Shown here in pieces: positions 3,868-49,683 of a stretch of 49,683 bases of DNA; within the stretch, counting starts at the first letter, position 1, and each line of letters starts with the position of its first letter. The DNA comes from Pseudobutyrivibrio sp. (GTDB taxonomy: Bacteria; Bacillota; Clostridia; Lachnospirales; Lachnospiraceae): assembly GCF_015057185.1 (NCBI RefSeq), contig NZ_SVEV01000023.1, positions 10,170 to 59,852 of the forward strand, read 5' to 3'. The notes beneath the pieces are model-generated. The model was not told the origin of the DNA, did no database searches, and saw only the letters and a program-made list of their open reading frames with translations. The translations under genes were made by a program, and so were the position numbers.

Positions 3868-3873
3868 GGGCTA

Positions 3874-3879
3874 ATTATA
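3874..3879 (-). promoter_or_regulatory. Extended -10 promoter giving a probably leaderless mRNA
   Basis: The minus strand reads TGATATAAT, a full extended -10, with its last base only 6 nt before ATG 3867. Transcription would start at or within a base or two of the ATG, and no ribosome-binding site exists there. The -35 is poor, as is common for extended -10 promoters. Confidence 0.55.
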
Positions 3880-3886
3880 TCATAAA

Positions 3887-3917
3887 AATAGCGCCAAGCT
3901 TAATGCCTAGCGCTATT
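3887..3917 (-). terminator. Terminator at the end of the cluster 1 operon
   Basis: Arms AATAGCGC (3887-3894) and GCGCTATT (3910-3917), with partial inner pairing, are followed on the minus strand by TTTTTATG. It lies between the MucBP gene stop (3924) and the SipW-sortase fusion, so the fusion is probably not simply co-transcribed with the fibre genes. Confidence 0.75.
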
Positions 3918-3923
3918 AATTAT

Positions 3924-5837: not shown

Positions 5838-5855
5838 TTCGCTTGCTCCCTCTTG

Positions 5856-7207: not shown

Positions 7208-7220
7208 CACTGTCTCCTCC

Positions 7221-8312
7221 CTATCTCATTTCCTGTTCTGGTATTACTTCTACAGGTGTTTCTTCTTCAGGAATAAATCCTTCTTCACCGAAATGGTTCT
7301 CAATACTAATAGTTCCAACATCTATCTCGTCGTTGTACTCATTTGTAAAACTAGCAATCAATGTATCCTGAGCTTTGATCACAGTCTTAGCATTCTCGCC
7401 CAATGCACCAGCTACTTCATATGAGTAAGAGCTGCTAGTTAATTTATAACTTGCACCAACATAATACTCAGTGACTGTTACTGTAGAGCCTGCTGGAATC
7501 ATTTCAGAAATGAATATTTCCTGCGTACCTGGCGCCTCAAAATTCATGCTGTAAGCATTACTTAAGAACTTTGTAGTGCCATCTTTCTTAGTGATTTCAA
7601 CATCATATGCAAATGCTGCCTCACCAAGTGACTCATTGTAAGATTTCAAAGTCTTTTGAATCTTAAGAGCACCGTAACGCTCTGTTGCCTCTGCCTTAAG
7701 CGCAAATGATATTGTGTCGTAGTTCCATGCATCACTTGTTCCTGTTCCCATGATGTAATCGCTTGTAGGTGCATAGATAATATATGAAGTAAAATTGTAA
7801 TCGTAGTAATCGTCCTGAGTTGGTCTTGGAACATATAGGTAAATACCTGCTGCTGGATTAGCTTCTGTTGACTTAATTATAGTAGAAGCATTTGTAAGAC
7901 CATTTTCACCCTTAGTAGCTGTAATTGTAGCTGTAGGTGTAGGCTTATTATCTTCAACAACCTTAGTAACCTTTTCTACAATTTCTTTCTTAACATCATC
8001 TACTACTACCTTGTCACCATTCAGAACACTAAGCTTTGCTCCAGAATTTGCGAACTCAGAAGTAAGTGTTGGAGTTCCTGCAGCATCAAGTGAGGCAATC
8101 TTATAAAGGTCGATTATCACATTGCCCTTATACTCACTTGCGAATATTGAGTACGCACTCTCACTGGAAACCGTGGCTGTGATTGTAATATCCTTTGTTA
8201 AATCAACTCTCTCAGCCGCCTGTGAATTGTGAACTCCTAGTCCAGAAACAGCAAGAACTGTTACCAGCGCCATCGCTATCAAATTTTTCTTTTTAAACCC
8301 TATTCTTTTCAC
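7221..8312 (-). CDS. Unanchored minor pilin-like protein with DUF7601/Cna-B-like domain (cluster 1)
   Basis: 363 aa, GTG start at 8312 with GGGAG 6 nt upstream, overlapping the sortase stop by 4 nt. Signal peptide 1-32 (ends NSQAAERVDL). The N-terminal part (IFASEYKGNVIIDLYKIA) resembles pilin N-domains. The C-terminal domain starts YGALKIQKTLKSYNESLGEAAFAYDV, typical of DUF7601 Cna-B-like modules, and ends FTNEYND. Unusually there is no LPxTG, membrane helix or positive tail: after the last domain comes GTISIENHF and an acidic end. The cluster 2 paralogue (28884-29942) has the same arrangement, with SAENHF, so the missing anchor is ancestral, not a frameshift. It is probably held by non-covalent or pilin-to-pilin contact. 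Confidence 0.75.
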   Translation of the reverse strand: MKRIGFKKKNLIAMALVTVLAVSGLGVHNSQAAERVDLTKDITITATVSSESAYSIFASEYKGNVIIDLYKIASLDAAGTPTLTSEFANSGAKLSVLNGDKVVVDDVKKEIVEKVTKVVEDNKPTPTATITATKGENGLTNASTIIKSTEANPAAGIYLYVPRPTQDDYYDYNFTSYIIYAPTSDYIMGTGTSDAWNYDTISFALKAEATERYGALKIQKTLKSYNESLGEAAFAYDVEITKKDGTTKFLSNAYSMNFEAPGTQEIFISEMIPAGSTVTVTEYYVGASYKLTSSSYSYEVAGALGENAKTVIKAQDTLIASFTNEYNDEIDVGTISIENHFGEEGFIPEEETPVEVIPEQEMR

Positions 8313-9211
8313 TGAGATCTCCCTTCAGCTTCTACATCTTTTTTCTTAAAAATATGTCTGATAATAAGAATGATAATCAATGCTAAGATGAATCCAGCAA
8401 TACCAATAATTAAATAATAATTTTTAACTGTTTCCACCACAGCTTCTGTGCCAGTTGGCGGTTCATCCTCTCCAAGGTATTCAACCCTGATACCCCTGAC
8501 TAAAAGTCTGTGGGTGTTTACACCGTATGGTGTACATGTGAATAATGTTACATAATCCTTGCCCTGCTCTACCTGCATCGCATCTGAAAGTGTATCAATG
8601 TCCTCTGCAGGAATTGCCTGTTCAATGTTGTCCACCTCGTAGGCAAGTGTTTCATCCAAAACATGGATGTAAAATTTGTCCCCAATCTCCAGCTGATCAA
8701 TGTTGGTAAATAGCTCTGCACTAGGTAAACCTCTGTGACCAACTATGACTGAGTGTGTGCTTGCGCCACCGATTGGAAGTGCTGTTCCATTCATATGACC
8801 AACGGCCGTCTGAATGTACTCATCAAATGTGCCATGCATAATCGATAGCTTTAAATTTATTTTTGGAATGGACAAATAGCCCATAATTCCATCGCCATTA
8901 ATATTTAGTACTGAGAAATACTCCGAGTTCAAAAACTCCTCTGTTGGCGTAACTGCATTGCCATCAGCTCCAGTAGAAAATGCATCAGTACCAATCTGGT
9001 TTTCTGTGATACCCTCATTGAATGCCCTAGCTGCTGCCCACTCAGCAGAATAATCATCGGTGCTCATATTTTGCAGCGAGTCCTCATAATTATTAATGAG
9101 TGTGCTCTGGACATATATGTTCCATTCGTTTGAAATGGTTGGGTATGCCAAAATCAAAAATCCAACTATGAATAATAAAATTACTAAAAATTTAGTTATC
9201 TTCTGCTTCAC
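8309..9211 (-). CDS. Class C (pilin-polymerising) sortase, second copy
   Basis: 300 aa, GTG start overlapping the preceding sortase gene by 20 bp (AAGGA 8 nt upstream of GTG). N-terminal membrane helix (about 8-27), extracellular domain, C-terminal helix (about 262-286) and a positive tail: the two-helix layout of class C sortases. The catalytic His is in GHRGLPSA, Cys in TLFTCTPYGVNTHR, Arg in HRLLVRG. The lid that normally carries DP[FWY] may be represented by DAF near residue 77. It should link LPxTG pilins into polymers at the outer membrane face. Its neighbours, the LPFTG backbone pilin (10173) and LPETG adhesin (11561), are the obvious substrates; cluster 2 pilins are likely too because that cluster has no sortase. 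Confidence 0.9.
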   Translation of the reverse strand: MKQKITKFLVILLFIVGFLILAYPTISNEWNIYVQSTLINNYEDSLQNMSTDDYSAEWAAARAFNEGITENQIGTDAFSTGADGNAVTPTEEFLNSEYFSVLNINGDGIMGYLSIPKINLKLSIMHGTFDEYIQTAVGHMNGTALPIGGASTHSVIVGHRGLPSAELFTNIDQLEIGDKFYIHVLDETLAYEVDNIEQAIPAEDIDTLSDAMQVEQGKDYVTLFTCTPYGVNTHRLLVRGIRVEYLGEDEPPTGTEAVVETVKNYYLIIGIAGFILALIIILIIRHIFKKKDVEAEGRSQ

Positions 9212-10085
9212 TGGTCTTTTCCTTCTTTGTTCTCAATTTATCGTATATGTATAATATTACGATAAATAGGGCAACAATTGCTAGTCCTACTATTACCCAC
9301 AAAAGATAATTTGAATGTAAGCTTACCATTCCAAAGGCTGGTGTCTTTGCATCCTCTAGTAATTCTGGTGTGTACTCAACTCTGTGTCCTGTAACCATGA
9401 GGCGCTGTGTGTTAACACCGTATGGTGTGCAAGTAATCAGTGTACACAAATCCTCGCCATCCTTTACTGCAAGAAGTGAGGTATCATCTGGTTCAACTAC
9501 TTCTATTGACTCGATTTCATATGCGTAGTACTCACCCATGATTATGAGGAAGAAATCCTCACCAATTTCCACCTTGTCAAGATCAGTGAAAAGTGTCGCA
9601 CTAGGCAAACCTCTGTGAGCCGATAGTACTGAATGTGTGCTAGGTCCACCGATTGGAAGTGAACTTCCCTCTAGGTGACCAACGCCAATCTGAAGAACAT
9701 CTTCGTTAGTCGTGTGAAAAATAGGAAGCTTTACATTGATACTTGGTATCTGAATGTATCCCATGATTCCATCACCGTTGGCATTCAGTATGCTCATGTA
9801 GTTTTCATCAGTGCCATTTGCCTCTGCCTCTGCAAAGGAATCTGGCAAAATGCTTGGAAGTAAATCCTCGTTGTACTGCTCTGCTCTCTCAAGCTCTGCT
9901 GTCACATCAAGTGAACCTTCCTCTATTGCTGTCTCAACTGATTCTGAATAGTTGTTAACTAACTGTGCCTGAACATGATTGTTCCAGGTATTAGCAACCA
10001 GTGGATACAACAACAAGGACAATCCAGCAAGCATCAAAATGCCGATAGCAATAAATCTGTAGTATTTTTTCAAGAATGTTTTCAT
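9192..10085 (-). CDS. Class C sortase, first copy
   Basis: 297 aa from ATG 10085 (MKTFLKKYYRF). A longer frame to 10145 exists but its first 20 residues run through an intergenic hairpin and lack a signal-like composition; AAGGAGAGG lies 13 nt before the chosen ATG. N-terminal helix about 10-28, C-terminal helix about 258-282. The catalytic set is His in AHRGLPSA, Cys in TLITCTPYGVNTQR, and Arg in QRLMVTGHR. The lid region has DSF in place of DP[FWY]. About half identical by eye to its downstream neighbour, so the two arose by tandem duplication and may divide the work (backbone polymerisation versus incorporation of adhesin or minor pilin), as in other pilus islands. Confidence 0.9.
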   Translation of the reverse strand: MKTFLKKYYRFIAIGILMLAGLSLLLYPLVANTWNNHVQAQLVNNYSESVETAIEEGSLDVTAELERAEQYNEDLLPSILPDSFAEAEANGTDENYMSILNANGDGIMGYIQIPSINVKLPIFHTTNEDVLQIGVGHLEGSSLPIGGPSTHSVLSAHRGLPSATLFTDLDKVEIGEDFFLIIMGEYYAYEIESIEVVEPDDTSLLAVKDGEDLCTLITCTPYGVNTQRLMVTGHRVEYTPELLEDAKTPAFGMVSLHSNYLLWVIVGLAIVALFIVILYIYDKLRTKKEKTSEAEDN

Positions 10086-10114
10086 CGATGCTTTCTGTCC
10101 TCTCCTTGGTGTTG

Positions 10115-10136
10115 TGCCCTGACAACTGCCAGGGCA
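10115..10136 (-). other. Intergenic stem-loop between backbone pilin and sortase genes
   Basis: TGCCCTG (10115-10121) pairs with CAGGGCA (10130-10136), a perfect 7-bp GC-rich stem with an 8-nt loop in the 87-bp gap. No T-run follows, so it is not a full terminator. It may act as an RNA-stabilising or attenuating hairpin that keeps pilin mRNA more abundant than sortase mRNA. Confidence 0.5.
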
Positions 10137-10172
10137 TGCCACCAATTTATTTTGTAAATATTGTTTTTCTAA

Positions 10173-11543
10173 TTACTTAGAAGCCTTTCTCTTTGATGCA
10201 AAGAAAAGTGCTGCTGCGATAGCCATGATAGCTACACCGAGTACTGTGAAGATTGTTGTACCCATACCACCAGTGAATGGAAGTGATGCAAGCTTTGTAT
10301 CGTAAATTGATACAGCATCTGTTGTAACGTGCTTATCTAATGACTCGCCCTGTTTAAGCTCTGCATCTACACCATTTGGATTGATAGAGTATGTTGCTGG
10401 AGCAACTGTCTCATCAAAGTGATACTTTCCTTCTGAAAGTCCTGTTACTTTTAATACACCCTTTGTTGCTTCGATTTCATCAACAACCTTTGTTTGATCG
10501 TCAGATGTCTCTGCAAGCTTATAAATGCTTACGCCATCTTTGTTCTCAACAAATACAAACTTAAGAGCTGTAGTAGCACCATCCTTGTAAACCTTGAACT
10601 TAGCACCATCAAGCTTTGTAGTTTCATCATCAGCATACTTTGTAAGTGTGATATCACCCTCAACACCCTTTACTGTGATTTCGCCTGTCTCTTCATCATC
10701 CTTTACAGAATATGTAGCTGTATTCTCATATCCTTCTGTACCAGTAACTGTTGCCTTGTATTCAATAGTAAGAGGCTTATGAGCATCATCAAGAATGTAC
10801 TCATCATCAGCGTATACAAGATCTGTTAAAACAAGAGCAAACTTATCATCCTCTACCTTTGTAAATGCATAATCACCTGTTAAAACTGTACCATCAATCT
10901 TGATTACAGGCTTAACACCATCTAAACTTGAAAGACCAGTTGTGTAATCATAAACAACAAACTTGTTTACATAACTTGGAACTGTCTTTGTAATTGTGAA
11001 TGTTACTTCCTGACCAGCGTTTACGAATGTATCGTTTGGCTCCTTGTCAAGGTCACTATCTGTACCCTTTGCAGTTACCTTGTCGTTTGTAGCTACATAA
11101 TTTCCATTAGCATCGTTTGTTATAGCCACTGATACCATTGGGCTGTATACTGCTTCATCGCTTGAAGCAACGATATAGTAAACACCTGCTGGCAACTGAG
11201 AGAATGTAACAGTGCCATTATCACCTGCAGTCTGCTGAGGAGCTGCAGTAGCTATGTTTGCATTCCATGCACCCTCAAGTTTTTCAACATCACTTACAGA
11301 CATCTGAACTTTCTCAAGTGCATTTGTTGTAGACTCGCCAACTGTATATACTTGGCTTGCCCAATCCTTTACTTTAATTTTGTTGTTTTCAATGGTAGCT
11401 ACTGTATAAATATCTACCTTTGCGCCTTTTTTAAGGTCTTCAACTGTTACAGTTGCTGTGTCTGCGGCAAATGCTGTAATGCTCATTGCCATCATCATTA
11501 TCACTGCGAGTGCGAGTGATAAGATTTTTCTCATCTTTTTCAT
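10173..11543 (-). CDS. LPFTG-anchored backbone pilin (cluster 1)
   Basis: 456 aa. Signal peptide 1-27 (ends ITAFAA). The N-domain KGAKVDIYTVATIENNKIKV is typical of fimbrial shaft proteins. The middle domain (EVTFTITKTVPSYVNKFVVYDY) resembles the isopeptide-forming fimbrial D2 domain. A C-terminal Cna-B-type domain starts ITLTKYADD..KLDGAKFKVYK and has the E-box-like DETVAPATYSI, whose Glu catalyses a Lys-Asn isopeptide bond in this family. Sorting signal LPFTGG, helix, and tail KRKASK. About 450 residues with one major pilin next to class C sortases is the normal backbone pilin design. AAGGAGAGAG precedes the ATG. It follows the tip adhesin by 17 bp, so one operon. The cluster 2 counterpart is at 29970. 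Confidence 0.85.
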   Translation of the reverse strand: MKKMRKILSLALAVIMMMAMSITAFAADTATVTVEDLKKGAKVDIYTVATIENNKIKVKDWASQVYTVGESTTNALEKVQMSVSDVEKLEGAWNANIATAAPQQTAGDNGTVTFSQLPAGVYYIVASSDEAVYSPMVSVAITNDANGNYVATNDKVTAKGTDSDLDKEPNDTFVNAGQEVTFTITKTVPSYVNKFVVYDYTTGLSSLDGVKPVIKIDGTVLTGDYAFTKVEDDKFALVLTDLVYADDEYILDDAHKPLTIEYKATVTGTEGYENTATYSVKDDEETGEITVKGVEGDITLTKYADDETTKLDGAKFKVYKDGATTALKFVFVENKDGVSIYKLAETSDDQTKVVDEIEATKGVLKVTGLSEGKYHFDETVAPATYSINPNGVDAELKQGESLDKHVTTDAVSIYDTKLASLPFTGGMGTTIFTVLGVAIMAIAAALFFASKRKASK

Positions 11544-11560
11544 TGTATCTCTCTCCTTTA

Positions 11561-14500
11561 TTACTTAATGTTTTTTTGGTTCTTTTTGTTTTTATATAAC
11601 ATCAGCGATGCGCCTAACATAAGAAGTACGCCGCCGATTGTATATACATAAATTCCTCTTCCACCTGTTTCTGGAAGTGTGTAGGCAACTTTGTCAATCG
11701 CGTTAAACCATACCTTTGTTTCAGTTGTTCCAACGATGACTGTGTAAACCTTCTCAGCAGATGAATTTGTGAGATAATCGCTGTTAAGCAAGTAGCTTGT
11801 TGTATTTGAAGCGATTGCCTTTCCAGCTGCGTCGAAGAAGTATCCCTTATCAACGCTATCTCCTAATACACTAAAGTTCTTTATAATTTCTGATGTTACA
11901 CTATCGCCTGATGATGTAACTGTTAATTTGTAATTACTTGGTGTATTAGCTTCAGCCCTTGTGATTGTGACTGTAAAGATTTCATCACTCAATGTGAATC
12001 CCTCTGGTGCCTGTACTTCCTTGATGTAGTAAGTACCAACTCCAAGCCCATCGATTAACAATGACTGATAATTCTTATTTGCATCTGATGATGATATCTC
12101 TTTAATCTTTGTAGTGCACTTATCATCTGTGAAGATTCCATATGTTGCTCCAACTAATTTAGATGAATCTAAAGCACTAATCTTATCGAAATAAATACCT
12201 GCATCAACAACATTGATATAGTATTTTCCACTTCCTGTAGATGTTGTAACTTCCTGATTTGTGCTATCTGGAGCTACCCAAGCTGATGATAATCTTGTAG
12301 CCTGTGGAGTGGCTGTGAATGTAACACTAGTCTCATAATAGTAACTATTATCTCCTACAGTCTTGTTATCACCGTCCCCAGCCTTGGTACCACTAGTCAC
12401 TGCAATTGTACCCTCAGCTGCATCAGCTGTTCCTGGGTATGAATATGAAATAACTCCATTGTTAATGCTAATGCTGTTACTATTAAATACTCCCGAAATC
12501 TCATGCTTAACATTGTTGCTATCTGTGTAGTAGCACTGAATGCCTGATAGCAAATTCATTATCTCATCATTTGATGAAAGCTGAGATACATCAAAAGTAT
12601 CATTTAACAATATTGTTGTCTCATTATCTGTAAGGCTAAAACTTAAAAGTTTAACGTTTACTGTAGGCATATCAAAATTAGTTGTATTTCCTTCTACAGT
12701 AACTCCTGAAGCAGGACCATTTGTTGTGATTGCATTACCACCCATGAAGTCATCCTTTGCCTTCACAAGGAACTTAGAGTCAAATCCGTTTGTTCCACTT
12801 GCCTTTGGTCCAATGTAAATATTGCTCCATGTAATTTTCTGAACACCATTTTCAGTACTAATTGTTCCTTCAACTTCTTCATACTGACCTGAAGCATTCT
12901 TTATAGTAGCTTTTACCTTGTCGCCATCGACATACTTTTTGTATGTTCCGTCTGTATTCTTATAGACTAATTCAAATCTAGGATCAACAACGTCTACTAC
13001 TGTTCCTGTTGCGCCAACTACGATATCAGCCATAACTTCCTGGAATGCTTCTGATACTTTGCTCATATTTGATACAGAGTGTACATTATCTGAAGAACCT
13101 GCAACATTGTTGGCAAAGTTCGTCATTTGAGTTGTAGCTGAACCATCATCATACTTGATGAAGAAAATGTTGGCTGCACAGCCATACATACTCTTGCTAG
13201 TTCCATCATATGTTTGCCAATCTGTTTTTACATTTGTTGCAGCACGTAATGCGCCTGCGCACTTTTCTGCTGCAGATGCAACTCCGGTATGGAAAGTTTT
13301 ATTAGTAGTTGGCACTCCATCAGTAAATAAGATGACATTATTTCTATATTCATCAGTTCTGTAATCATCAACAAGCACCTCATTGATAACTACTTCCAAA
13401 CCAGTATCAATTCGTGTTGCCCCTTCGGCACTTAAACCATTGATTTTTTCCTTGATAGTGCTCACATTATCCGAGGTACATTTTGTTAGTCCTAAAACTT
13501 TTCTCGAATCGCTTTTATCGCTAAATTCAACTACAGCTACTCTACAATCTGTACCCTCAAGACCTGAAACGAAATCATCAGCTGCAATTTTCATAAGATC
13601 CAAACGAGAAACTTCAAAATCTAATGGAGTCAAACTATCTGGTATATCTCCATCATAATCATTCCAGCCATTGAATAGTCTTTGCCATTTTGTTCCATCA
13701 TATCTATAAAAGTAATAATTTCTATCCTGCTGAGCATAGAATGTTTTTCCATGTAGGAAAGAGGCATTTTCAATAGTTGTTTTTCCAACTGTCGAAACAG
13801 AGTCGCCCATCGAACCGGAAACATCCAAAACAAGCACAATATCCTGTTTTGATCCCTCAGTAGTCTTTGTAGCAGATGCACCTAAATCAATTTCATAAAC
13901 TCTGCTTTCCCAATCGCTAACTGTAGCGGTCTTGTCTGTTGTAACAACAGTATCTCCAGCTTCATTCTTTTCGTTCTTGATAATCCATCCATTATCAGTT
14001 TTCTCTGAAAGTTTTCCTTCTATAGAGAATGTAGAACCACCTTTGCCGTCTGACTGAACATTGATGTACCATGCCTCTGTTGGTGATAAATATCCTGAAG
14101 GTGTTCCAGTCTCAGTAAGAATATATAATCCCTGAGGAATTCCTTCTGTTATATTTCCATTTGCATCCTTTAAATACTTGAATGAAACTACTCCATCTGA
14201 ACCAGAAGTGGCTACATCTTTCTGATCTGCATCAAGCGCCGTATATGCTCCATCAGATGAAACTAAAGTAAACTTTGCACCTGCAACTGGTATAGATGTA
14301 TCGTTAGCATCTACCTTTGTAAATTCAAGTGGATCAACAGGTGGTGCTGTCTCATCTACAACAGGCATATTGAACTTAATATAGCAATTACTCTTTCCTA
14401 GTCCTCTTTCGAGATAATATACTTGTAATGTATGCTTGCCATTGTCTAAGATATTTGTCTTATCAAATATCCCTTTATCATACATATTGAAGCTAGTACC

Positions 14501-16936
14501 ATATAAGGAAGCTTGTGAATTGTAAATATTACTTACAGTACAATCACCAGTTGAAAAATCAATTGATCCTTTTACAACTCCATGGATACCTCCCATATCG
14601 AGTACTAGTTTTCCATCAACATATACCCAAACATCATCATCACCAGAGAATTCAAATACACAAGGCTCTCCATTATTGGTTCCTGTCTTTGTCATATTAA
14701 ATTCCTGAGTGAAGTGCATACCAAAATGGCCATACCCTTTTTCTTCGTTTTTACTATTTAGGTATGTCCCAAATGGCCAAAATCCTGCCAAGCCATAATC
14801 ACCGTCAGTAGTAATCAACCCTGACTCTGAATCGAATGTAGCCTTTGAATTAGCACTGTTAAATACATAGTATCCATCGCTGTCTAATTCAAATGGAAAA
14901 CCTACATTGTAATATGCTTTTGTATGCCAAGTATTAGTATTACCATACTTATATGTATATGTTTCATACTCTGTATTGCTAGATTTATTCTCTGTTGTAA
15001 AATAACCCGGTGTGCCGTACCCATTGAATGTAATCATTCCATCTTGAGAACCCAAATTTTGACTAACCATACCTTGGTATGCCTTGCCATCATTTGCATT
15101 ATTCTCATGGCACTTATTCCAATCCTCGCTGTCACTGCCTGAACACATTGTAAGATACTTTGCAGAGTTTGCAGAGTATGCAACAGCATTAATAGCTGTA
15201 AGTGTCTTATTTCCAACTTTTATAGTATCAGTATCATTGTACTTGAATAAATCCACTGTAAACTGAGGTCTATCTGCACCGGATCCAGATAAATACAATT
15301 CTATATAGTTTATTGATGGATTCTGATTATTATAGTTTCCTTTGCAGCAATAGTTCTCTAAGGTATATTCGTAATCGCCATCTTTATCAGCAGTTATTTC
15401 TTCCAAATCATCGCCAAACCCAGCTTTAAATCGATCAATAGAGTATCCTTCGGCTATTTCTTCTACTCTGAACCATTGATCTGCATGTCTAGTATTAGAA
15501 GTACACACATATCCACTTTCTTCTACTAGTGTTTCATTTACGTATATCTTTACAACTAATGGATAGTATGTATCATCATCATTATTAATATAGTACCAAT
15601 CATAATATTTATTAACGCTAGGTAAACTATCTACCTCATCCCAATCTTGTTCTTTATACTTCCTAGAACTGTTAGACCAATACCATGAAAAGATTGAAGC
15701 ATATTTACTGGTATAAATAGCATCCAAATCCCCACTTACCGCAACTATATATGTAGAGAAATGATCTGTAATCATTTCCATATCTGCGTCTTCATTTTCA
15801 GTTGTATCAGTAGCAGTTTCAACCTTATTTACAGACTCATCAACATAATGGTAAACCTCTGTAGTCATTGAATCATCATCGATACCTTCAACATTTCCAA
15901 GACTTAGGAATTCTACCTTAACTTCACCATTTGGTTCAACGACATCACCAGACTCTGTCAGCAGATTAATATCATATGCTACGAAGTCTACAACAGCTGT
16001 TTCCTCTCCAGTCTCAACATCAAGTGCCTCTGACATTTGGTTGTATACATCTTCGTCAGACTCTTTTGTAATCTCTTCTACAGAAACACTAACTGCATCT
16101 CCAAATACTGATTTCTTACCAGTAATTCTAACGATACCATTCGAATCAGTTAATGAAATACTCTGTTCCTGACCACAGTGAATACAAATTCCATTCTCAT
16201 CGAATTCGCACTCTTCGATTTCCTCGTGATTTACTTCATTACCTTCTTCGTCGATTGTTACCCATGTTTTTGTATGAGTGCCATCTCCGTTTGAAGTATA
16301 TGTATATTCGATTTCTGGATCTTCTTCTGCCTTCTTGTATCCACAGATTTTGCAAACGCCATCTTCGTCGTAATCGCAAGTCTCTGTTTCTACCTCGCTG
16401 CACTCACTGCAAGTTCTTGAATGAGTTCCGTCCTCATTAGATGTCCACTCGCCAAAAACGTGCTCGCACTTTTCAGCATCCTCTTCCTCTGATGTAGGCT
16501 CTGCATCCTCTGGCTTAGTCTCCTCATCGGTAACTTTCTCGCCATCCTCTGCAGGAGTCTCACCAGCTTCATCGTCAGAAGCTTTCTCATCTGCATCAAC
16601 AACAGGAGTATCAGCAGCTGGTGTGCCCTCATTAGCGATATCATTTTTTATTTCATCAGCGATGGTATTAACTACGCCATTGCCATCTGTCTGAGTGTCA
16701 GCAGTCTGACTAGCATCAATCAATGCATCCCCAGATTCTGGCTGGCCAGATTCAGAGCTATTTGAACCATCTGATGATGTAACATCACTAGATGCAGCTC
16801 CTTCAGATATTTGAACAGAAGCCTCAACAGGAGCATCTGTTTCCTCTCCAGCGTATACTGACATTGGAGATGAAGCAGCAAGTGCTACTGCAAGACCTAA
16901 AGAAAGAATTCTATTAGCTAAAGCGATCCTCTTCAT
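11561..16936 (-). CDS. Giant vWA/fibro-slime/Cna-B pilus-tip adhesin, LPETG-anchored (cluster 1)
   Basis: 1791 aa. Signal peptide 1-30 (ends VYAGEE). An acidic Ser/Asp/Glu-rich spacer (30-155) leads to three paired-Cys elements (about 157-262; CSEC, CKICGYK, CIHCGQ) like small metal-binding or disulphide modules of gut surface proteins. A fibro-slime/PA14-like module follows (about 725-845; FSGDDDVWVYVDGKLVLDMGG). A Cna-B-like domain lies at about 870-1000 (GLYILTETGTPSGY) and a von Willebrand A domain at about 1035-1325 with the MIDAS DVSGS. Another Cna-B domain (about 1585-1660; YYIKEVQAPEGF) precedes LPETGG, a helix and a basic tail. vWA plus Cna-B plus a sorting signal is the standard plan of tip adhesins such as RrgA. 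First gene of the cluster 1 operon; the ligand is not predictable. Confidence 0.9.
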   Translation of the reverse strand: MKRIALANRILSLGLAVALAASSPMSVYAGEETDAPVEASVQISEGAASSDVTSSDGSNSSESGQPESGDALIDASQTADTQTDGNGVVNTIADEIKNDIANEGTPAADTPVVDADEKASDDEAGETPAEDGEKVTDEETKPEDAEPTSEEEDAEKCEHVFGEWTSNEDGTHSRTCSECSEVETETCDYDEDGVCKICGYKKAEEDPEIEYTYTSNGDGTHTKTWVTIDEEGNEVNHEEIEECEFDENGICIHCGQEQSISLTDSNGIVRITGKKSVFGDAVSVSVEEITKESDEDVYNQMSEALDVETGEETAVVDFVAYDINLLTESGDVVEPNGEVKVEFLSLGNVEGIDDDSMTTEVYHYVDESVNKVETATDTTENEDADMEMITDHFSTYIVAVSGDLDAIYTSKYASIFSWYWSNSSRKYKEQDWDEVDSLPSVNKYYDWYYINNDDDTYYPLVVKIYVNETLVEESGYVCTSNTRHADQWFRVEEIAEGYSIDRFKAGFGDDLEEITADKDGDYEYTLENYCCKGNYNNQNPSINYIELYLSGSGADRPQFTVDLFKYNDTDTIKVGNKTLTAINAVAYSANSAKYLTMCSGSDSEDWNKCHENNANDGKAYQGMVSQNLGSQDGMITFNGYGTPGYFTTENKSSNTEYETYTYKYGNTNTWHTKAYYNVGFPFELDSDGYYVFNSANSKATFDSESGLITTDGDYGLAGFWPFGTYLNSKNEEKGYGHFGMHFTQEFNMTKTGTNNGEPCVFEFSGDDDVWVYVDGKLVLDMGGIHGVVKGSIDFSTGDCTVSNIYNSQASLYGTSFNMYDKGIFDKTNILDNGKHTLQVYYLERGLGKSNCYIKFNMPVVDETAPPVDPLEFTKVDANDTSIPVAGAKFTLVSSDGAYTALDADQKDVATSGSDGVVSFKYLKDANGNITEGIPQGLYILTETGTPSGYLSPTEAWYINVQSDGKGGSTFSIEGKLSEKTDNGWIIKNEKNEAGDTVVTTDKTATVSDWESRVYEIDLGASATKTTEGSKQDIVLVLDVSGSMGDSVSTVGKTTIENASFLHGKTFYAQQDRNYYFYRYDGTKWQRLFNGWNDYDGDIPDSLTPLDFEVSRLDLMKIAADDFVSGLEGTDCRVAVVEFSDKSDSRKVLGLTKCTSDNVSTIKEKINGLSAEGATRIDTGLEVVINEVLVDDYRTDEYRNNVILFTDGVPTTNKTFHTGVASAAEKCAGALRAATNVKTDWQTYDGTSKSMYGCAANIFFIKYDDGSATTQMTNFANNVAGSSDNVHSVSNMSKVSEAFQEVMADIVVGATGTVVDVVDPRFELVYKNTDGTYKKYVDGDKVKATIKNASGQYEEVEGTISTENGVQKITWSNIYIGPKASGTNGFDSKFLVKAKDDFMGGNAITTNGPASGVTVEGNTTNFDMPTVNVKLLSFSLTDNETTILLNDTFDVSQLSSNDEIMNLLSGIQCYYTDSNNVKHEISGVFNSNSISINNGVISYSYPGTADAAEGTIAVTSGTKAGDGDNKTVGDNSYYYETSVTFTATPQATRLSSAWVAPDSTNQEVTTSTGSGKYYINVVDAGIYFDKISALDSSKLVGATYGIFTDDKCTTKIKEISSSDANKNYQSLLIDGLGVGTYYIKEVQAPEGFTLSDEIFTVTITRAEANTPSNYKLTVTSSGDSVTSEIIKNFSVLGDSVDKGYFFDAAGKAIASNTTSYLLNSDYLTNSSAEKVYTVIVGTTETKVWFNAIDKVAYTLPETGGRGIYVYTIGGVLLMLGASLMLYKNKKNQKNIK

Positions 16937-17347: not shown

Positions 17348-18151
17348 TCACTCTAGGAACCCCTCCACCACTCTCCTAACTTGAATAGGATCTAGAGGTT
17401 TATCCTTAGTTTCATATGTGATAATCAAATCTCTACCAAGGAGTAACCCACTGTTTTCGTAATCAGCAATCTTCTTGGCATTTTTCAAAAAATACTCGAC
17501 ATCATCCACCATTCCCAAATGTTCCCAATATTTTGTTTTTCTTTTTCTAACATTTAATACTGTGAAATCAGGTAGCACTTTATTGTATTCATTAAACCAT
17601 AATGGTTTTTCATACAGGTATGGCACACCATATTCATCTAATATATTAGATATAATCACTTCAGACTTAGAGCGCATTTTAATCCCATGACCATTATCAA
17701 ATATCTTGCCGTCATTATAGTAGTCTGGTTGCTCATACTCCTGAGAAAGCCACTCAGCTATATAATCTTCATCAGATTGCATTATAGGCTTAATCAATTC
17801 TTCCTTTCCATAAGATAGACTACCTGCTATTTCTTCTACAGTGCGGTTACCATAAACATTTAATAATCTTCCTAGACTGTTGTATTCCTTCTTTGCAGCC
17901 TCTAGTACTTTTGAATCATATTCTTTTTGAGCTAATCGCACCGCCATTCTTTTATTACTAGCTTTAATATACTGACCATTTTTTTCATTTTTATTTGTTC
18001 TTAAGAAATATTGGTTCGTATTCCTACATTTTGCAACTCGTAATATTCCATCTGGAGCATTATGCAAAGTTCGCTCCTTCTCTTTAATTATATTTTGAAG
18101 TTCGTTGTATCTTTCCAATGCCAACTTCTCAATTTCATTGTATCTTATCAT
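17348..18151 (-). CDS. PD-(D/E)XK nuclease-like protein with an upstream palindrome array
   Basis: 267 aa from ATG 18151, chosen because AGGAG lies 7-8 nt upstream; a longer frame to 18169 would place that site inside the gene. The N-terminal half is helical and charged (LALERYNELQNIIKEKER). The C-terminal part has a PD-(D/E)XK-type core: Glu in RSKSEVI, YLYEKPL, Asp in VLPDFTVL, then KTKYWEHLG. This is the arrangement seen in nuclease domains of the E...PDF...EHxG kind; the classic ExK lysine is not obvious. A paralogue with the same architecture is at 48577-49416. Both genes are stand-alone, with no methylase, helicase or transposase nearby, and both are immediately preceded by arrays of inverted repeats. 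Nuclease activity and target are inference; it could instead be a DNA-binding autoregulator. Confidence 0.7.
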   Translation of the reverse strand: MIRYNEIEKLALERYNELQNIIKEKERTLHNAPDGILRVAKCRNTNQYFLRTNKNEKNGQYIKASNKRMAVRLAQKEYDSKVLEAAKKEYNSLGRLLNVYGNRTVEEIAGSLSYGKEELIKPIMQSDEDYIAEWLSQEYEQPDYYNDGKIFDNGHGIKMRSKSEVIISNILDEYGVPYLYEKPLWFNEYNKVLPDFTVLNVRKRKTKYWEHLGMVDDVEYFLKNAKKIADYENSGLLLGRDLIITYETKDKPLDPIQVRRVVEGFLE

Positions 18152-18254
18152 TTCATAACTCCTTTTCATTAAATTGGGGTTCTAGCTGACAATCCAATTG
18201 TTTGTTCAGCAAAAACTCATTTTTTCTTAGTAGTTTCTAGTTATTAGAGAGATA

Positions 18255-18468
18255 TACTAAGCCAGGTGCATACCTCTACATTACTTAGTACACTTTTCGA
18301 TGCGCGTACTAAGCAATTGCCATTCGCGACATTATTTTAGTACGCTTAATTTCTTGCGCACTAAAATATTTTCATTCTTGTCATAGGTTTAGTGCGCTTA
18401 TTGGACAGCGTACTAAACCTATGATTATTTGCCCTTTTTCTTCGTCGGACAAAAAAGCTGTGTACTAA
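18255..18468. repeat. Palindrome array A, 52-bp period sub-array
   Basis: Half-sites of type GYGYACTAA begin at 18304, 18356, 18408 and 18460, exactly 52 bp apart. Opposing half-sites TTAGTRCRC lie at 18284 (CTTAGTACAC), 18337 and 18388. Facing pairs span 42 bp, for example GCGTACTAA (18304-18312) with TTAGTACGC (18337-18345), and GCGCACTAAA (18356-18365) with TTTAGTGCGC (18388-18397). Overlapping pairings in the other phase are also good: 18382-18397 with 18408-18423 gives a 16-bp stem with one mismatch. Begins about 104 bp upstream of the nuclease-like gene. Not a CRISPR: intervening DNA is short and not spacer-like. Confidence 0.8.
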
Positions 18469-18532
18469 TAATTGGGAATAAATGGTGATAGTATAGTGCG
18501 ATTTACAAAAATCTATGCCTATTCTTTTTTCA

Positions 18533-18720
18533 GTGCACTAAGAAATTCGCATTATCCATGCTTGTTTAGTACGCATGGTGAATTAAGACATCTTCTCTTC
18601 ATAAAGTGCACTAAGAAATCAGCATTCCCCATGCTTGTTTAGTACACATCACAAATTAAGACAGCTTTTCTCCATAAAGCGCACTAAGAACTTCATCACA
18701 GTCTCTATATCTTAGTCACG
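18533..18720. repeat. Palindrome array A, 73-bp period sub-array
   Basis: Three tandem units start at GTGCACTAA 18533, 18606 and GCGCACTAA 18679, exactly 73 bp apart. Facing half-sites are TTTAGTACGC (18565), TTTAGTACAC (18638) and a decayed CTTAGTCACG (18711), also 73 bp apart. Within each unit the facing pair still spans 42 bp. The period differs from the 52-bp sub-array by 21 bp, two DNA turns, so helical phase is kept. Units 1 and 2 are about 80% identical. Confidence 0.8.
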
Positions 18721-18944: not shown

Positions 18945-18997
18945 GGTCACCGTATAGAATGCGCTGGATGATATCCTTGCTTAGTTGAATCCTGAGG

Positions 18998-19344
18998 TTA
19001 AAATGTGGCAAAGGAAAGCCACATTTTAATCTTGCTAGTGCAAGACAGCGATTCATAAAGTGAATCGCTGCCGGATACGGAGGAAGCTAATCTGATGATT
19101 AGCTTCCTCCTGGGTCAAAATGCGTACAAGGAAGGCCACATTTTAATCTTGCTAGCGCAAGACAGCGATTCATAAAGTGAATCGCTGCCGGATACAGAGG
19201 AAGCTAATCTGATGATTAGCTTCCTCCTGGGTTAAAATGCGGTCAGGGAAAACCGCATTTTAATCTGCCTTCGGCAGACAATGATTTACTTCGTAAATCA
19301 TCGCCGGGTACGGATTTAACTAAGCTTTATGCTTAGTTAAATCC
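18998..19344 (-). repeat. Three-unit, twelve-hairpin structured repeat downstream of GT2
   Basis: A 117-bp unit occurs three times. Read on the minus strand each unit holds four perfect or near-perfect hairpins: H1 (19312-19344; 19197-19226; 19079-19110), H2 (19281-19301; 19163-19187; 19046-19070), H3 (19265-19277; 19148-19161; 19031-19044) and H4 (19232-19263; 19115-19146; 18998-19029). Stem sequences differ between unit 1 and units 2/3 (H1 GGATTTAACTAAGC versus GGAAGCTAATC; H3 CTGCC versus CTTGC; H4 ATGCGGT versus ATGTGGC) yet every stem stays paired, while linkers (CCGG, CCAGG-like) are conserved. The two imperfect H4 positions in the middle unit are G-U pairs only on the minus strand. H1 includes the GT2 stop codon. 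I do not recognise a known RNA family. Confidence 0.8.
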
Positions 19345-25739: not shown

Positions 25740-26765
25740 TTAGCTATTCTTTTTGTTATCATACTTTTCTTTTGCAGAAGCAAGTACTGTTATAAATATT
25801 ACTGCTATTCCGATGATAAGAATCACAAATGCATATTTCTTATATGAATCTAAAAGTGCATTTGTTGCTACAGCCTTTGCAACTTCTTCATCTTTGATAT
25901 CGATTACATCTTCAACTCCGAGAGGTGTTTCAGTATCATCGATTGTTGTTGCATCGCCACCTGCCTGTTCGCCTTCACCTGCAGCTGCTGCCTCGCCACC
26001 TTGGTTTCCGCCTCCTGCCTGATTTCCACCGGCCTGCTGATCACGGTTATTAATTGTTCCAAGGTCTCTTGCAACTGACTGGTATGTATAAGAAGGAGCG
26101 CCCTGTACTGTTGAGTATGATGTAGATGTGCTTGTGTTATATACTGTATTTCCACCAGCAGCTTTGGTATACGTAAATATGAATTCCTGATTCTCTGCTA
26201 ATTTATCTACATGAAGGTTATAAGCGTTAGGTGTATATCCACTTATGAATCTATAAGGAACATATACCTCTTCTCCTAATGCTCCATAATATGTAGCTGT
26301 TTCAAGAAGGCTATTTCCTGCATTATCCAAATACTTTACTGTATAAGGAACTGAAGAACCAACACCGTATGCTATAACATATGAGTCATCCTGTGTTACC
26401 GTAAATGCGGATTTTGAAACCACATCGTTTGCTCCACTGACTCTCATGCCCTTTACATAATACTTGGCATTTTCTCCAGTAATGGCAACTGCTGATTTAG
26501 GATCAAATGCTACTGAATCCTCATACATCAAATCTGAGATTGTAATGCAATCTGCTCCGTTGAAGCTTACGCTTGCTGTGTTTGAAACTACTGTCAAACT
26601 AGAGCTTAGATCGTTTAAGAATTCTGCTTTTGTTTCAGCTGTTCCGCCAAGTACAATGTTGATTCTGTAGGTATAGCTTTCAGCTTTTGCAGTAAGCGGC
26701 ATCATAACCGTTACCGCCATAACCATCATTAAGATTAATCCGAATAATTTTTTTACACTCATCAT
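25740..26765 (-). CDS. MucBP-domain membrane surface protein (cluster 2)
   Basis: 341 aa, paralogue of 3924-5021 in the same position of the cluster. Signal peptide 1-28 (ends TAKAESYTYRI). The N-domain shares YTYRINIVLGG. The MucBP-like domain SVPYTVKYLDNAGNSLLETATYY runs to FTYTKAAGG. A Gly/Gln/Ala-rich linker follows, then VIDIKDEEVAKA just before a single helix (about 312-332) and a short positive tail. No sorting motif, so it is membrane-bound. It starts with ATGATG 2 nt after the upstream stop (AGAAGG ribosome site). Last gene of cluster 2. Role inferred as for the cluster 1 copy. Confidence 0.8.
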   Translation of the reverse strand: MMSVKKLFGLILMMVMAVTVMMPLTAKAESYTYRINIVLGGTAETKAEFLNDLSSSLTVVSNTASVSFNGADCITISDLMYEDSVAFDPKSAVAITGENAKYYVKGMRVSGANDVVSKSAFTVTQDDSYVIAYGVGSSVPYTVKYLDNAGNSLLETATYYGALGEEVYVPYRFISGYTPNAYNLHVDKLAENQEFIFTYTKAAGGNTVYNTSTSTSYSTVQGAPSYTYQSVARDLGTINNRDQQAGGNQAGGGNQGGEAAAAGEGEQAGGDATTIDDTETPLGVEDVIDIKDEEVAKAVATNALLDSYKKYAFVILIIGIAVIFITVLASAKEKYDNKKNS

Positions 26766-26766
26766 A

Positions 26767-27594
26767 TTACGCTACCTTCTCTCTTTTGTTTTTTGTTAGC
26801 AAAAAATACCAAAGAATTAAGCCAATTCCTAAAAGCATCATTGCTGAGCAAATAATTATTGGTAGTGGTGAATCGCCAGTCTGTGGATTTGCTGATGTTG
26901 GAACTACTCCCTCATCAATGAGGATGACTTCTGTTCCACCAGGAACCTCGTATACTACTGTTCTCGACTTGTTTTCTGTCACTGTATTAGTAGTTGCTGG
27001 TTCCACATTTTCTACACCGAATCTAACATCAAGTGATGCTAGCTTTTCCATGTAGGAATTGTCCTGTGAATTTCCATCAAGTGCGATTTCGATTTTTACT
27101 GTTCCCATACCCCCTGCAGGAACGATTCCTACGTCGAAGTATGTACCTTCACCATTTTTCAGTGTTCCCTGAATCTGGTTTAGGCCAAGAACTGTAGTAT
27201 TGTCGCCACCTAATGTCTCGCTATTGTAGATAATGGTAGTGGTTCCGTTTAAGGTGTAGCTAAGCTCGTATGAATAAGCTCCACCGCTAATATTTGCTGC
27301 ACTACCATCGATGTTTTTCTCTTCAAGAGAATTTATGATGTCTGTGCTGAGATAAAAGTCTGCTGACTTGTCTGATGTGTTTTTGTAATCTACGTTGAAT
27401 ATTACTGTATCTCCAGGCATTACGCTTGTAATAGTGGATTTGCTAACATCGTAGCTAGAAGTAATACCTTTTCCGTCGTAGGTTACGTCCCAACCGGTAG
27501 TCTGAGTACTTGCACTTGAACTAAATCCAGTTCCCATTAATCCTGCCATAGTAAGTGCTAGAGCAAGGACCATATTTAAAATTTTTTTCTTCAT
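26767..27594 (-). CDS. NPQTG-motif cell-surface protein (cluster 2)
   Basis: 275 aa, paralogue of 5022-5837. Signal peptide 1-30; mature start TTGWDVTYDGKGITSSYDVSKS matches the cluster 1 copy nearly residue for residue. The ectodomain has several DGNSQDNSYMEKLASLDVRFG-type segments, also shared. GGTEVILIDEG precedes NPQTGDS, a helix and the tail KNKREKVA. NPQT is the class B sortase recognition core, yet no sortase lies in this cluster; the SrtB half of the fusion at 2614 is the nearest candidate. Ribosome site AAAGGAG. Confidence 0.8.
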   Translation of the reverse strand: MKKKILNMVLALALTMAGLMGTGFSSSASTQTTGWDVTYDGKGITSSYDVSKSTITSVMPGDTVIFNVDYKNTSDKSADFYLSTDIINSLEEKNIDGSAANISGGAYSYELSYTLNGTTTIIYNSETLGGDNTTVLGLNQIQGTLKNGEGTYFDVGIVPAGGMGTVKIEIALDGNSQDNSYMEKLASLDVRFGVENVEPATTNTVTENKSRTVVYEVPGGTEVILIDEGVVPTSANPQTGDSPLPIIICSAMMLLGIGLILWYFLLTKNKREKVA

Positions 27595-27609
27595 ATCCCG
27601 CTCCTTTCA

Positions 27610-28353
27610 CTACTGAACAGATTTACCACCAATTGTTAATATATTTCCATCATCAGGTGCAGAACATGTTGCTTTGATTCCCCAAGCTGCGTATATTGCA
27701 TCTTCGCTGTTGTGGGTCTGAACTGCATCTGCTTGAATCTGAATGTAAACTTCCTCTCCGTTGTAGAGATATTCGTTTACGATTGTTCCTTTAAGCTCGG
27801 TTCCATTTTCTATAGCTGGCTTTGTTTCAACAAATGTTGTAACTTCGTTATTGATTTTCAGTCCTGTTATAAACTCTGCTGCATTTCCACAAGCTAAAGG
27901 TGAGGTCATGTAATAAACTTCCTGTTCTGTTGTGGTCTCGTCTGGATTTAAATACCATCCTTCTGCTGTCTCAAGCTCGATAAGCTCTGGATTTAAATTG
28001 GTGCTCTTGCCATCCTTGAACCAGCTCTTTCTAACAACCACTCTTACATATTCACTGTAGCCTGTTTCATTGTTAGAGTTATTAACAACTCGAACTCTCT
28101 CATCGTATTTCTTTCCGATTTTGATTGTTTCGTCTTGTTTTACACTATCGAAAACCAACCCATCGTCTGCTGAAACGTATTCATCACCAACCATTTCCTG
28201 AACATCTACCGAAATAGTTGCTGTTGAGAAATTAACTCTTTCAGCTGCTGTTTGATAAACGATTGCTGCTCTAGCTGCGCCAACTGAGCCTGCTGCTATG
28301 ACGATTAGTCCAAAGGCTAGGATGATAAGCGGATTTTTAATTAATTTTTTCAT
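27610..28353 (-). CDS. TasA/camelysin-like secreted protein, second type (cluster 2)
   Basis: 247 aa, paralogue of 5856-6578. The N-terminus MKKLIKNPLIILAFGL is a signal region, then AARAAIVYQTAAERVNFSTATISVDVQEM, parallel to the cluster 1 protein. Shared internal blocks include EYVRVVVRKSW, ELIELETAEGWYLN (cf. LIELNTTDSWMKL) and ADAVQTHNSEDAIYAAWGI. No anchor. In the canonical YFTD position it has VYQT, so cleavage by a SipW-type enzyme is likely but not certain. Preceded by AGGAGG and 4 bp after the YFTD-type gene, a tight pair as in cluster 1. Confidence 0.7.
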   Translation of the reverse strand: MKKLIKNPLIILAFGLIVIAAGSVGAARAAIVYQTAAERVNFSTATISVDVQEMVGDEYVSADDGLVFDSVKQDETIKIGKKYDERVRVVNNSNNETGYSEYVRVVVRKSWFKDGKSTNLNPELIELETAEGWYLNPDETTTEQEVYYMTSPLACGNAAEFITGLKINNEVTTFVETKPAIENGTELKGTIVNEYLYNGEEVYIQIQADAVQTHNSEDAIYAAWGIKATCSAPDDGNILTIGGKSVQ

Positions 28354-28357
28354 ATGC

Positions 28358-28858: not shown

Positions 28859-28883
28859 AATTGGTTACCTCCATCTCACATTT

Positions 28884-29942: not shown

Positions 29943-29969
29943 TGGCGACTCCCTTCTAAGCCAAAAGGC

Positions 29970-31307: not shown

Positions 31308-31329
31308 ACGCCTTACCTCCTATTACAAC

Positions 31330-48576: not shown

Positions 48577-49416
48577 TTAATCAATCAAAAATCTCTTTAG
48601 CATTCTCTCTATCATTTTTATATCTAGTCCATCGTTTTGTGTTTCAAAACTGTATAAAAGATTATTTCCATATACAAATCCATTTTTGTCATATACAGCT
48701 ATCTTATTTACACATAGAGCTGCATACTCAGGATTATCCATCATTCCAAAATGTTCATATATATACGTTTTTCTCTGAACAATATTCAAAGTTGCAAAAT
48801 CTGGATGTAGCACCTTTTCTCCCACCACAACTGTTGGCTCATAAACATATGGAATCCCTTCTTTAAACAGTTTATCAGCAATTATCTTTTCAGATTTAGA
48901 TCTAACCTTTTCGCCTCTTTCTGTATAATATGGCTTTGTTATAGGATGTTTCTCATAGAAAGAATCATTTGCTGGATTTCTTTGGGAGTATCTATCATAC
49001 CATTTGTTGATAAACACTTCATCATCCTCATATTCACTCTCAACTAATGATTTTCTCACTTCGCCTAGGCTATTGTACACACTAAATTTAGGATTATCCC
49101 GATAATAATCTATAACAGGCTGTATAATATCACATCTTTTTTTCATATCCTCAATCAACTGCCTGTCATATTCCCCTTGAGCAAGCATCCTAGCCAACTC
49201 CTGATCCTTCTGTTTTATATATTCTCGTACTTTTCTTGTTTCTCCATCATCTGTCTGGATATGACTACATTTATAGAATTGTGGATATCTCCCCTTATTA
49301 TTTTTGATTTCAAGATGAATACCCGGTGTATAGATTAATGTATTCTCTAATTCTTGTATTTTATGTGCAAGTTCGCTTTTCTCCTGCTCTAAACTCTCTA
49401 AAAATCTATCTTTCAA
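48577..49416 (-). CDS. PD-(D/E)XK nuclease-like protein, paralogue of 17348, with its own palindrome array
   Basis: 279 aa if started at TTG 49416, which has AAGGAG 6 nt upstream. The open frame extends to a GTG at 49461, but that start lies inside the first palindrome of the array and lacks a ribosome site. The N-terminal half is helical (LESLEQEKSELAHKIQELENTL), then the conserved middle (YPQFYKCSHIQ, LARMLAQGEYDRQLIEDMKKRC; cf. AVRLAQKEYDSKVLEAAKKEY in the other copy). The nuclease-like core has RSKSEKIIADKL, IPYVYEPTVV, VLHPDFATLN and KTYIYEHFGMMD. Same architecture as 17348-18151 at roughly one-third identity by eye. Function unknown. The array directly 5' of both genes is the shared feature. 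Confidence 0.7.
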   Translation of the reverse strand: MKDRFLESLEQEKSELAHKIQELENTLIYTPGIHLEIKNNKGRYPQFYKCSHIQTDDGETRKVREYIKQKDQELARMLAQGEYDRQLIEDMKKRCDIIQPVIDYYRDNPKFSVYNSLGEVRKSLVESEYEDDEVFINKWYDRYSQRNPANDSFYEKHPITKPYYTERGEKVRSKSEKIIADKLFKEGIPYVYEPTVVVGEKVLHPDFATLNIVQRKTYIYEHFGMMDNPEYAALCVNKIAVYDKNGFVYGNNLLYSFETQNDGLDIKMIERMLKRFLID

Positions 49417-49453
49417 TGCATACTCCTTGTAATTTTTGTGTCTATAGTGACGA

Positions 49454-49683
49454 ATTACCACTGTAGTTGTCTGTTTTCCTGTTTCGCAGTGGTAATTTAT
49501 TTTTCATTTACCACTGCAGTTGCTCGTTTTCTAGTTCCGCAGTGGTAATATATTTTTTCTTTACCACTGCAGTTGCTCGTTTTCTAGTTCCGCAGTGGTA
49601 ATATATTTTTTTCTTTACCACTGCGGTTGCCTGTTTTCCTACTTTGCAGTGGTAATTCATTTTTTCTTTACCACTGCGGTTGC
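49454..49683. repeat. Palindrome array B, 53-54-bp tandem units
   Basis: Units start (ACCACTG) at 49457, 49510, 49563, 49617 and 49670, a period of 53, 53, 54 and 53 bp, and continue past the window end. Each unit is an inverted repeat TTACCACTGC with GCAGTGGTAA spanning 41 bp (for example 49508-49548), loop about 21 nt with a conserved middle (CGTTTTCTA type), then a 12-13-bp T-rich spacer. Period and pair span match array A (52 and 42 bp), but the arm sequence is different. No variable spacers, so not a CRISPR. Confidence 0.9.

Follow-up and report, generated by a model that had tools for sequence, protein, structure and literature searches.

Protein-binding sites repeated at whole helical turns are familiar from iteron-Rep systems and other phased binding arrays, and the specificity subunits of type I restriction enzymes exchange their DNA-reading modules at a conserved locus; both properties recur in the DNA analyzed here. 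Homing endonucleases, for their part, recognize sites that are interrupted by insertion of the homing gene. In the REP/REPIN and RAYT systems (REPtrons), as described in passages of one paper (PMC3733652), an enzyme gene is accompanied by palindromic repeats both at the gene and in distant intergenic places, the RAYTs are HUH tyrosine enzymes, and, where a species has several repeat families, its enzyme genes are repeat-specific. A passage of a review states that the homing enzyme I-Bth0305I dimerizes on a target of nearly 60 bp (PMC3943268).

We analyzed a 49,683-nucleotide stretch of Pseudobutyrivibrio DNA (hereafter, the window) in which a nuclease-like gene, A, and its paralog, B, each follow an array of inverted half-sites, an arrangement that resembles the REPtrons in having repeats at the gene as well as far from it. 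Our best reading is that of a site-specific nuclease with genome-resident arrays, namely a REP/RAYT-like organization that employs an unrelated enzyme and phased arrays, and in which binding, cleavage, and array mobility are putative.

Nuclease genes A and B and their upstream arrays

Gene A (17348..18169, minus strand) is an ORF of 273 aa by its longest frame, or of 267 aa from the ATG at 18151; its residues are numbered here as in the AlphaFold model, in which residue 1 is the codon 18152-18154, directly 5' of that ATG. Gene B (48577..49461, minus strand, longest frame) has a likelier start at 49416, picked by ribosome-site score, which gives 279 aa, and the two proteins are 33% identical. 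No Pfam or NCBIfam family fitted A or B in profile scans of both window proteins; the HUH tyrosine transposase domain was absent from their Pfam scan to E 10, and an HTH_Tnp_1_2 row in the same scan was weak (E 0.094) and below its cut-off. The PADLOC profile PDC-S68 matches both proteins C-terminally (A, 3.7e-25; B, 5.5e-26), albeit over only 100-131 residues at the C-terminal end rather than over its full length of about 1200 residues, and PDC-S69 (a 289-position profile) also matches B, weakly (E 7.7e-6 over 103 residues).

Array A (18227..18716, minus strand) lies 5' of gene A and comprises 15 half-sites around TTAGTRCRC/GYGYACTAA, mostly alternating in orientation, with ACTAA/TTAGT cores (n=15) and a period of 52 bp close to the gene and 73 bp farther out. 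Array B (49455..49683, minus strand), located 5' of gene B, has nine half-sites, GCAGTGGTAA/TTACCACTGC, inside the window at a period of 53 bp, with nine TTACC/GGTAA cores between 49455 and 49672, and it is incomplete because the window ends where contig C56 ends. The original prediction of a stand-alone nuclease-like gene directly preceded by an inverted-repeat array is confirmed for A and for its paralog B. The array 5' of A, with its 15 ACTAA/TTAGT cores, is larger than was stated there, and the near-equal geometry that it saw despite the different arms (period of 52 versus 53 bp, facing-pair span of 42 versus 41 bp) holds when counted by eye on the printed sequence. A strict detector, built on chains of alternating 8-mer arms with at most one mismatch, retains six sites in array A and nine in array B.

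Elsewhere in the window, a 117-bp tandem repeat (2.4 copies, 90% matches; 18990-19266), which by eye shows no relation to the arms, sits in the interval from array A to a glycosyltransferase-like gene, and two parallel, apparently duplicated clusters of sortase-like, large surface-protein, and signal-peptidase-like ORFs (named by eye) occupy 2614-16936 and 25740-35139.

The AlphaFold model of A (pLDDT 95) combines a coiled coil bearing a β hairpin with a Vsr/I-Bth0305I-like nuclease domain. Its N-terminal half, residues 2-122 (17789..18151, minus strand), consists of a helix (5-31), the β hairpin (37-43/46-52), and a further helix (65-102), and is the putative array-reading part; the swap breakpoint, residue 120/121 of homologs, was transferred to A through an alignment. 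When structures were compared, the list for this half was filled by coiled-coil rows, two of them ranking above I-Bth0305I, and no DNA-binding relative of the N-terminal half stood out among them. The C-terminal nuclease domain, residues 150-268 (17351..17707, minus strand), has a restriction-like fold and carries E165, D196, E211, H212, and E248, and its active-site-like residues (E, D, and H) are invariant over 83 diverse sequences. The label originally given, PD-(D/E)XK nuclease-like, was right in kind, the best-matching solved nuclease domain being that of the EDxHD enzyme I-Bth0305I, while a profile search of solved sequences returned weak rows only, headed by T7 endonuclease I (E 0.32). 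The PD-(D/E)XK lysine is missing, though H212 is close by, so that nuclease activity is not certain; the C-terminal domain would be an active nuclease that the arrays keep in check or aim.

A nuclease domain of the A type also occurs within proteins whose annotation is AAA ATPase or helicase, both among plasmid matches and in PADLOC PDC-S68. Carriage of the gene by plasmids or phages was considered and rejected: tblastn with A returned eight plasmid records (five annotated as AAA family ATPase, two as helicase, and one unannotated), all of them matching C-terminally and none covering 80% of the query. The corresponding phage search returned two unannotated records, one of which covers 96% of the query.

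The window's genome contains six such nuclease genes, each with its own cis array and its own arm (TTAGTRCRC for A, GCAGTGGTAA for B, and CTACGTGGAT, TGCACTTA, TTCGTGTC, and TTATCGCAA for the others), and several of these paralogs have further arrays, alike in arm and geometry, between unrelated genes. Matches were found in 41 of 99 related genomes, with 28 of 29 Pseudobutyrivibrio genomes carrying 1 to 11 copies each, and in 38 of 391 sampled genomes of the class, at most six candidates having been scored per genome. Nuclease families with paired arrays occur in rumen bacteria.

The original prediction called for upstream arrays in homologs, and these are found within 1100 bp in 88 of 162 homologous loci, a set weighted to the best search matches and composed of loci that are not independent, whereas dinucleotide shuffling of the 162 upstream regions produced six sites in 1 of 1620 cases. 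Here, an array was counted when it had six or more alternating arms, and 162 of the 163 kept loci had enough upstream DNA; downstream arrays are present in 7 of the 162. Because 85 of 149 proteins of at least 235 aa pass the strict detector (3 of 13 shorter ones do so), the adverse outcome named in advance, homologs mostly lacking upstream arrays, does not apply to full-length homologs. Below the detector threshold are 74 loci, including 64 of the 149 full-length homologs; since the detector demands near-exact arms, any degenerate array is scored as a miss. Among full-length homologs scoring <150 bits, 4 of 23 pass; for loci whose own protein had served as one of the 71 queries, the hit score is a self-match. 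Some arrays reach 20 or more sites, and L064 and L070 have 14-site arrays on both sides, upstream and downstream of the nuclease gene. Two listed homologs, L050 and L057, have one in-frame stop each, and a related-locus search of genome contigs found no relative.

Helical phasing of the arrays

Geometry was assessed in 69 non-redundant arrays, whose proteins are <70% identical. Their commonest same-strand period is 42 bp in 1 array, 50-54 bp in 40, 60-65 bp in 16, 73-75 bp in 7, and 83-86 bp in 5, with none between, and these classes equal four, five, six, seven, and eight turns of B-DNA. The sole 42-bp (four-turn) array, at L142 (G340:C1), has 39 sites in its refined chain. The 29 arrays outside the 50-54-bp group show a mean cosine of 0.79 to exact multiples of 10.5 bp, which was the best of the repeats tested (7 to 16) and was equalled in 0 of 200,000 uniform draws. 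Moreover, 16 of 24 gap jumps within arrays are of 10-11 or 20-21 bp. Where a rigid gap is one with a range of 1 bp or less, both gaps are rigid in 47 of the 69 arrays, one is rigid in 20, and neither in 2, giving at least one rigid gap in 67.

Alignment of the arms in one frame yielded a common half-site, N6GTA. The gap in TACN6-gap-N6GTA is 17-21 bp (about 19 bp, for a unit of 37 bp) in 36 of the 69 arrays, the other 33 lying outside this frame, and in those 36 the next unit comes 14-19, 24-27, 36-39, or 48 bp on. Within arrays, the arms are 91% alike, a value inflated because the detector picked arms for being alike, and the spacers 53%, so that the spacing and the drift of the spacers carry most weight; arms exceed spacers in 66 of the 69 arrays, and spacers are <50% alike in 38. 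Spacers so far diverged indicate that the sites are not fresh tandem copies. At paired arm positions, G.T and A.C mismatches are balanced (163 versus 175). On the coding strand, purines slightly predominate in the spacers (mean of 0.551), the fraction being above one half in 47 of the 69 arrays and below it in 21.

Since the periods equal four to eight helical turns, the arms outlast the spacers, and the G.T and A.C counts are balanced, the arrays appear to act as double-stranded DNA, and this indirect evidence supports their being read as a duplex. Paired half-sites form a rigid unit that would accommodate one protein dimer, and, as the units repeat at whole helical turns, the bound dimers would share one face of the DNA.

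Correspondence between the N-terminal half and the arm

Over 76 arrays (2850 pairs), arm similarity correlates with how identical the N-terminal halves are (Mantel 0.108, p 0.0005), as compared with 0.041 (p 0.10) for the nuclease half, and partial tests gave p<0.001 for N given C and p 0.51 for C given N. This arm/N-terminal correlation is small over all pairs (0.11) and is carried by close pairs. Downstream of guaA in two species, L045 and L067 have (i) upstream flanks that are mostly 88-98% alike, (ii) array regions that are <50% alike, (iii) proteins that are 44% alike over residues 1-120 and 97% alike over residues 121-265, and (iv) first 500 nt downstream that are 92-98% alike. L008 and L009 likewise change at residue 120/121, with nuclease halves that are 83% alike. 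Both flanks are at least 80% alike in 22 pairs, and in 16 of these each member has an array of five or more sites. Ten of the 16 combine N-terminal halves that are 60% or more alike with an arm similarity of 0.49-0.66. In the remaining 6, some of which are interdependent (two of them are shared among L019, L037, and L048), the N-terminal half is <60% alike and trails the nuclease half by 15 points or more, with an arm similarity of 0.10-0.45.

Further, a gene-blind search for the B palindrome pair in one genome per species (84,980; a scan that may leave out records near the window's own genome) returned four stretches, all in Pseudobutyrivibrio and all just 5' of a B-like nuclease that is 44-47% identical to B, with the last arm starting 38-86 bp before the gene. 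Mutual information between protein and arm columns (36 arrays, 1854 pairs, z from 100 shuffles) placed its top two pairs, with z of 8.5 and 5.8, at model residues 48 and 52, in the hairpin strand 46-52; this signal is only suggestive, as 3 of the 14 pairs over z 4 sit in the nuclease half.

The functional tie between each protein and its own array, which the original prediction had put forward as an inference, is supported by the N-terminal Mantel test, by joint change at syntenic sites, and by the blind search for the B pair (four of four). Taken from sequence comparison, this is good support for the view that the N-terminal coiled-coil/β-hairpin half would read the arm, and that the array and the N-terminal half would be exchanged jointly, as a specificity cassette, against a common nuclease half.

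Trans arrays, competing explanations, and known systems

In the window's genome, B arms are also present on C17 (24 sites), on C25 (11 sites), and, as 6 sites, where contig C12 begins, the C12 array being probably the far side of array B. TATCGCAA arms recur on C48 (6 sites) and C15 (5 sites), and CTACGTGG arms recur on C42 as one pair and one lone half-site. Beside these, a 700-bp stretch has 20 copies of the core CGTGTC/GACACG of a fourth paralog, although this paralog's full profile has no match there. This trans search took in arms other than TGCACTTA, and the exact pair pattern of array A was found nowhere else in the genome. In other Pseudobutyrivibrio genomes, exact units in cis and in trans were pooled by type, giving 11, 19, 30, 18, 7, 1, and 0 in seven genomes for one type and 10, 5, 8, 8, 5, 3, and 0 in seven for a second, with 0 in all of them for the reversed control pattern. 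The maximum for the types checked is found in G007, where 30 units lie at the gene and nine other places, and 0-30 exact units per type per genome fall short of a REP-like high copy number.

Cognate palindromes are dispersed in intergenic DNA at 24 trans loci (21 with shared pairs counted once). Of these, 23 lie outside mechanical ORFs of at least 80 aa, two of them overlapping an edge by 15 and 29 bases, and one lies inside a mechanical 109-aa ORF. In most of the 24 loci, the trans spacings equal the cis spacings, and the neighboring genes are ordinary by eye. Three trans arrays are common to two species (L234/L236, L235/L237, and L249/L250). One array is duplicated in one genome (274 bp, 96% identity, some flank included), which is the only duplication seen, and this segment may be a mobile unit without a gene. 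An array-free ortholog of the large G019 trans array was sought, and the neighborhood was not syntenic. By eye, the duplicated segment L238/L239 (1470-1745) has possible imperfect inverted ends. In the printed sequence, another repeat, about 150 bp long and present twice, is interspersed with the trans array at L233 (1580-2330; G019:C2).

The nuclease at the guaA site of G011 has an arm that differs from that of its G019 counterpart; a G019-type trans array is nevertheless present in G011, where it may be read by another paralog. G025 has seven TACTATCT-type units at six places, and none of its nuclease loci found bears those arms, which implies that arrays can outlive or lack their cognate enzyme, or that the enzyme was missed. 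At L269 (G025:C89), in a species other than the window's, a nuclease is accompanied by an array in which the B arm, TTACCACTGC, occurs at 26 sites. Phage decoys were considered and rejected, as five arm patterns in viral contigs gave 1, 0, 13, 7, and 4 stretches, each a single palindrome with no array; by rough estimate, such counts of 16-base patterns are at about chance level. A single B-type palindrome pair at L204 (8996-9027), in a viral contig, stands beside phage-like structural ORFs (by eye), probably by chance.

The original prediction had taken the same repeats away from such genes as evidence against it. Trans arrays do exist, but their arms, where checked, are those of a resident paralog, save in G025. 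They thereby extend the link between enzyme and array and, among the options first suggested (a REP/RAYT-like or homing-like element, a self-limiting nuclease, or an operator), favor the REP/RAYT-like one over a purely local operator. On balance, we think it probable that A and B are members of a family of sequence-specific DNA nucleases that is chromosomal and present in multiple copies, and in which each nuclease owns private binding arrays. As to their role, analogy with REP/RAYT tentatively suggests that the resident nuclease helps to maintain or spread its cognate arrays, its specificity often being replaced so that paralogs do not cross-react; this is the part of the explanation of which we are least sure.

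The main rival, which we rate as somewhat unlikely, takes the protein for a self-limiting nuclease that its own sites keep bound. The arrays would serve as operators and sponge, the protein would repress its own transcription and be harmless while on its many sites, and the freed protein would cut DNA, for example when an invader disturbs the chromosome; diversification would stop paralogs from silencing or freeing each other. The position of the array 5' of the gene and the keeping of sites while spacers drift agree with such a scheme, and trans arrays would enlarge the sponge. Moreover, 9 of 69 upstream regions (shuffle expectation, 2.7) have a promoter-like TTGACA-17-TATATT whose start is 120-149 nt ahead of the first arm, so that bound protein would lie across the transcript in those loci; the motif occurs within arrays in 1 of 69 cases (3.1 expected) and between array and gene in 4 of 69 (2.1 expected). 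However, several arrays abut the upstream gene with no promoter seen, 20 or more sites far exceed the needs of autoregulation, no defense genes were recognized by eye among the ORFs of 15 loci, and viral contigs contain no arrays of the five tested arm types.

It is improbable that the proteins serve chiefly in chromosome architecture or regulation, where a nuclease fold would bind in phase and either bridge cis and trans arrays or control neighboring genes, with cutting being secondary. Helical phasing across many units is in keeping with such a function, as are trans arrays between ordinary genes, three of them common to two species, yet the active-site-like residues are invariant over the 83 sequences, the distribution is patchy (41 of 99 relatives and 38 of 391 class genomes), and specificity is replaced between close species.

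A homing-type selfish gene, whose nuclease would cut array-free alleles and which would then be copied in by repair, is very unlikely. The likeness to the homing enzyme I-Bth0305I speaks for it, as does the site between guaA and a radical-SAM-like gene, which is occupied in two species and unoccupied in the window's genome. The genus has 20 guaA loci that are followed by 1300 nt or more of sequence; at 13 of them a nuclease lies in that stretch and 7 have none, two of the latter (G004 and G008) having a nuclease about 1.9 kb away. However, an alignment of the filled and empty guaA sites revealed no clean insertion boundary and no target duplication, and classical homing does not fit because the recognized sites remain intact beside the gene, the half-sites of the 69 non-redundant arrays standing there as intact pairs and not as a gene-interrupted target. 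Lastly, that the arrays are transcribed hairpins (guide RNA or a 5' leader structure) is scarcely credible: the arms are complementary, a promoter-like site precedes the array in some loci, and the spacers are slightly purine-rich, but this is out as the main reading by the mismatch counts, in which G.U-compatible pairs are not in excess over A.C, and by the helical quantization of the periods, and the window and 19 loci gave no Rfam match.

It is quite possible, if short of probable, that the family is a new class of genome-resident element in which the specificity half and the array form one exchangeable cassette, with several mutually blind specificities per strain and apparently without a methylase; no partner methyltransferase was recognized by eye among the neighboring ORFs of 15 loci. 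In such an element, cis and trans arrays would mark the enzyme's place on its own chromosome, and the enzyme would maintain, multiply, or defend with them. The family would comprise nucleases that carry their own DNA specificity written out alongside them. It would offer a natural protein-to-site data set for an apparent β-hairpin DNA reader, a case of binding site and binding domain exchanged as one unit, and a way in to why bacteria would keep dozens of phased nuclease sites on their own chromosome. We know of no described system that is built this way, and our literature search of a limited open-access collection found no account of one.

Compared with REP/RAYT, the enzyme here is a restriction-like nuclease and not an HUH tyrosine enzyme, and the arrays are duplex-phased, have long spacers, lie mostly 5' of the gene, and occur at few trans loci, with specificity exchanged as a cassette; these differences in enzyme and in array phasing place the family outside REP/RAYT. 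It differs from the EDxHD homing endonucleases (I-Bth0305I) and Vsr in its N-terminal coiled coil with a β hairpin, in its sites being in arrays, and in having no gene-interrupted site, and from TnsA of Tn7 in that no transposase, ATPase, or transposon ends were recognized by eye nearby at 15 loci. Unlike in iteron-Rep systems, the sites are inverted pairs, the protein has a nuclease domain, and there are many chromosomal paralogs, and, unlike in type I restriction subunits, the reading module travels with its own site array. If it is such a new class of element, the family would represent a duplex-DNA counterpart of REP/RAYT with a switching of specificity like that of the type I restriction subunits.
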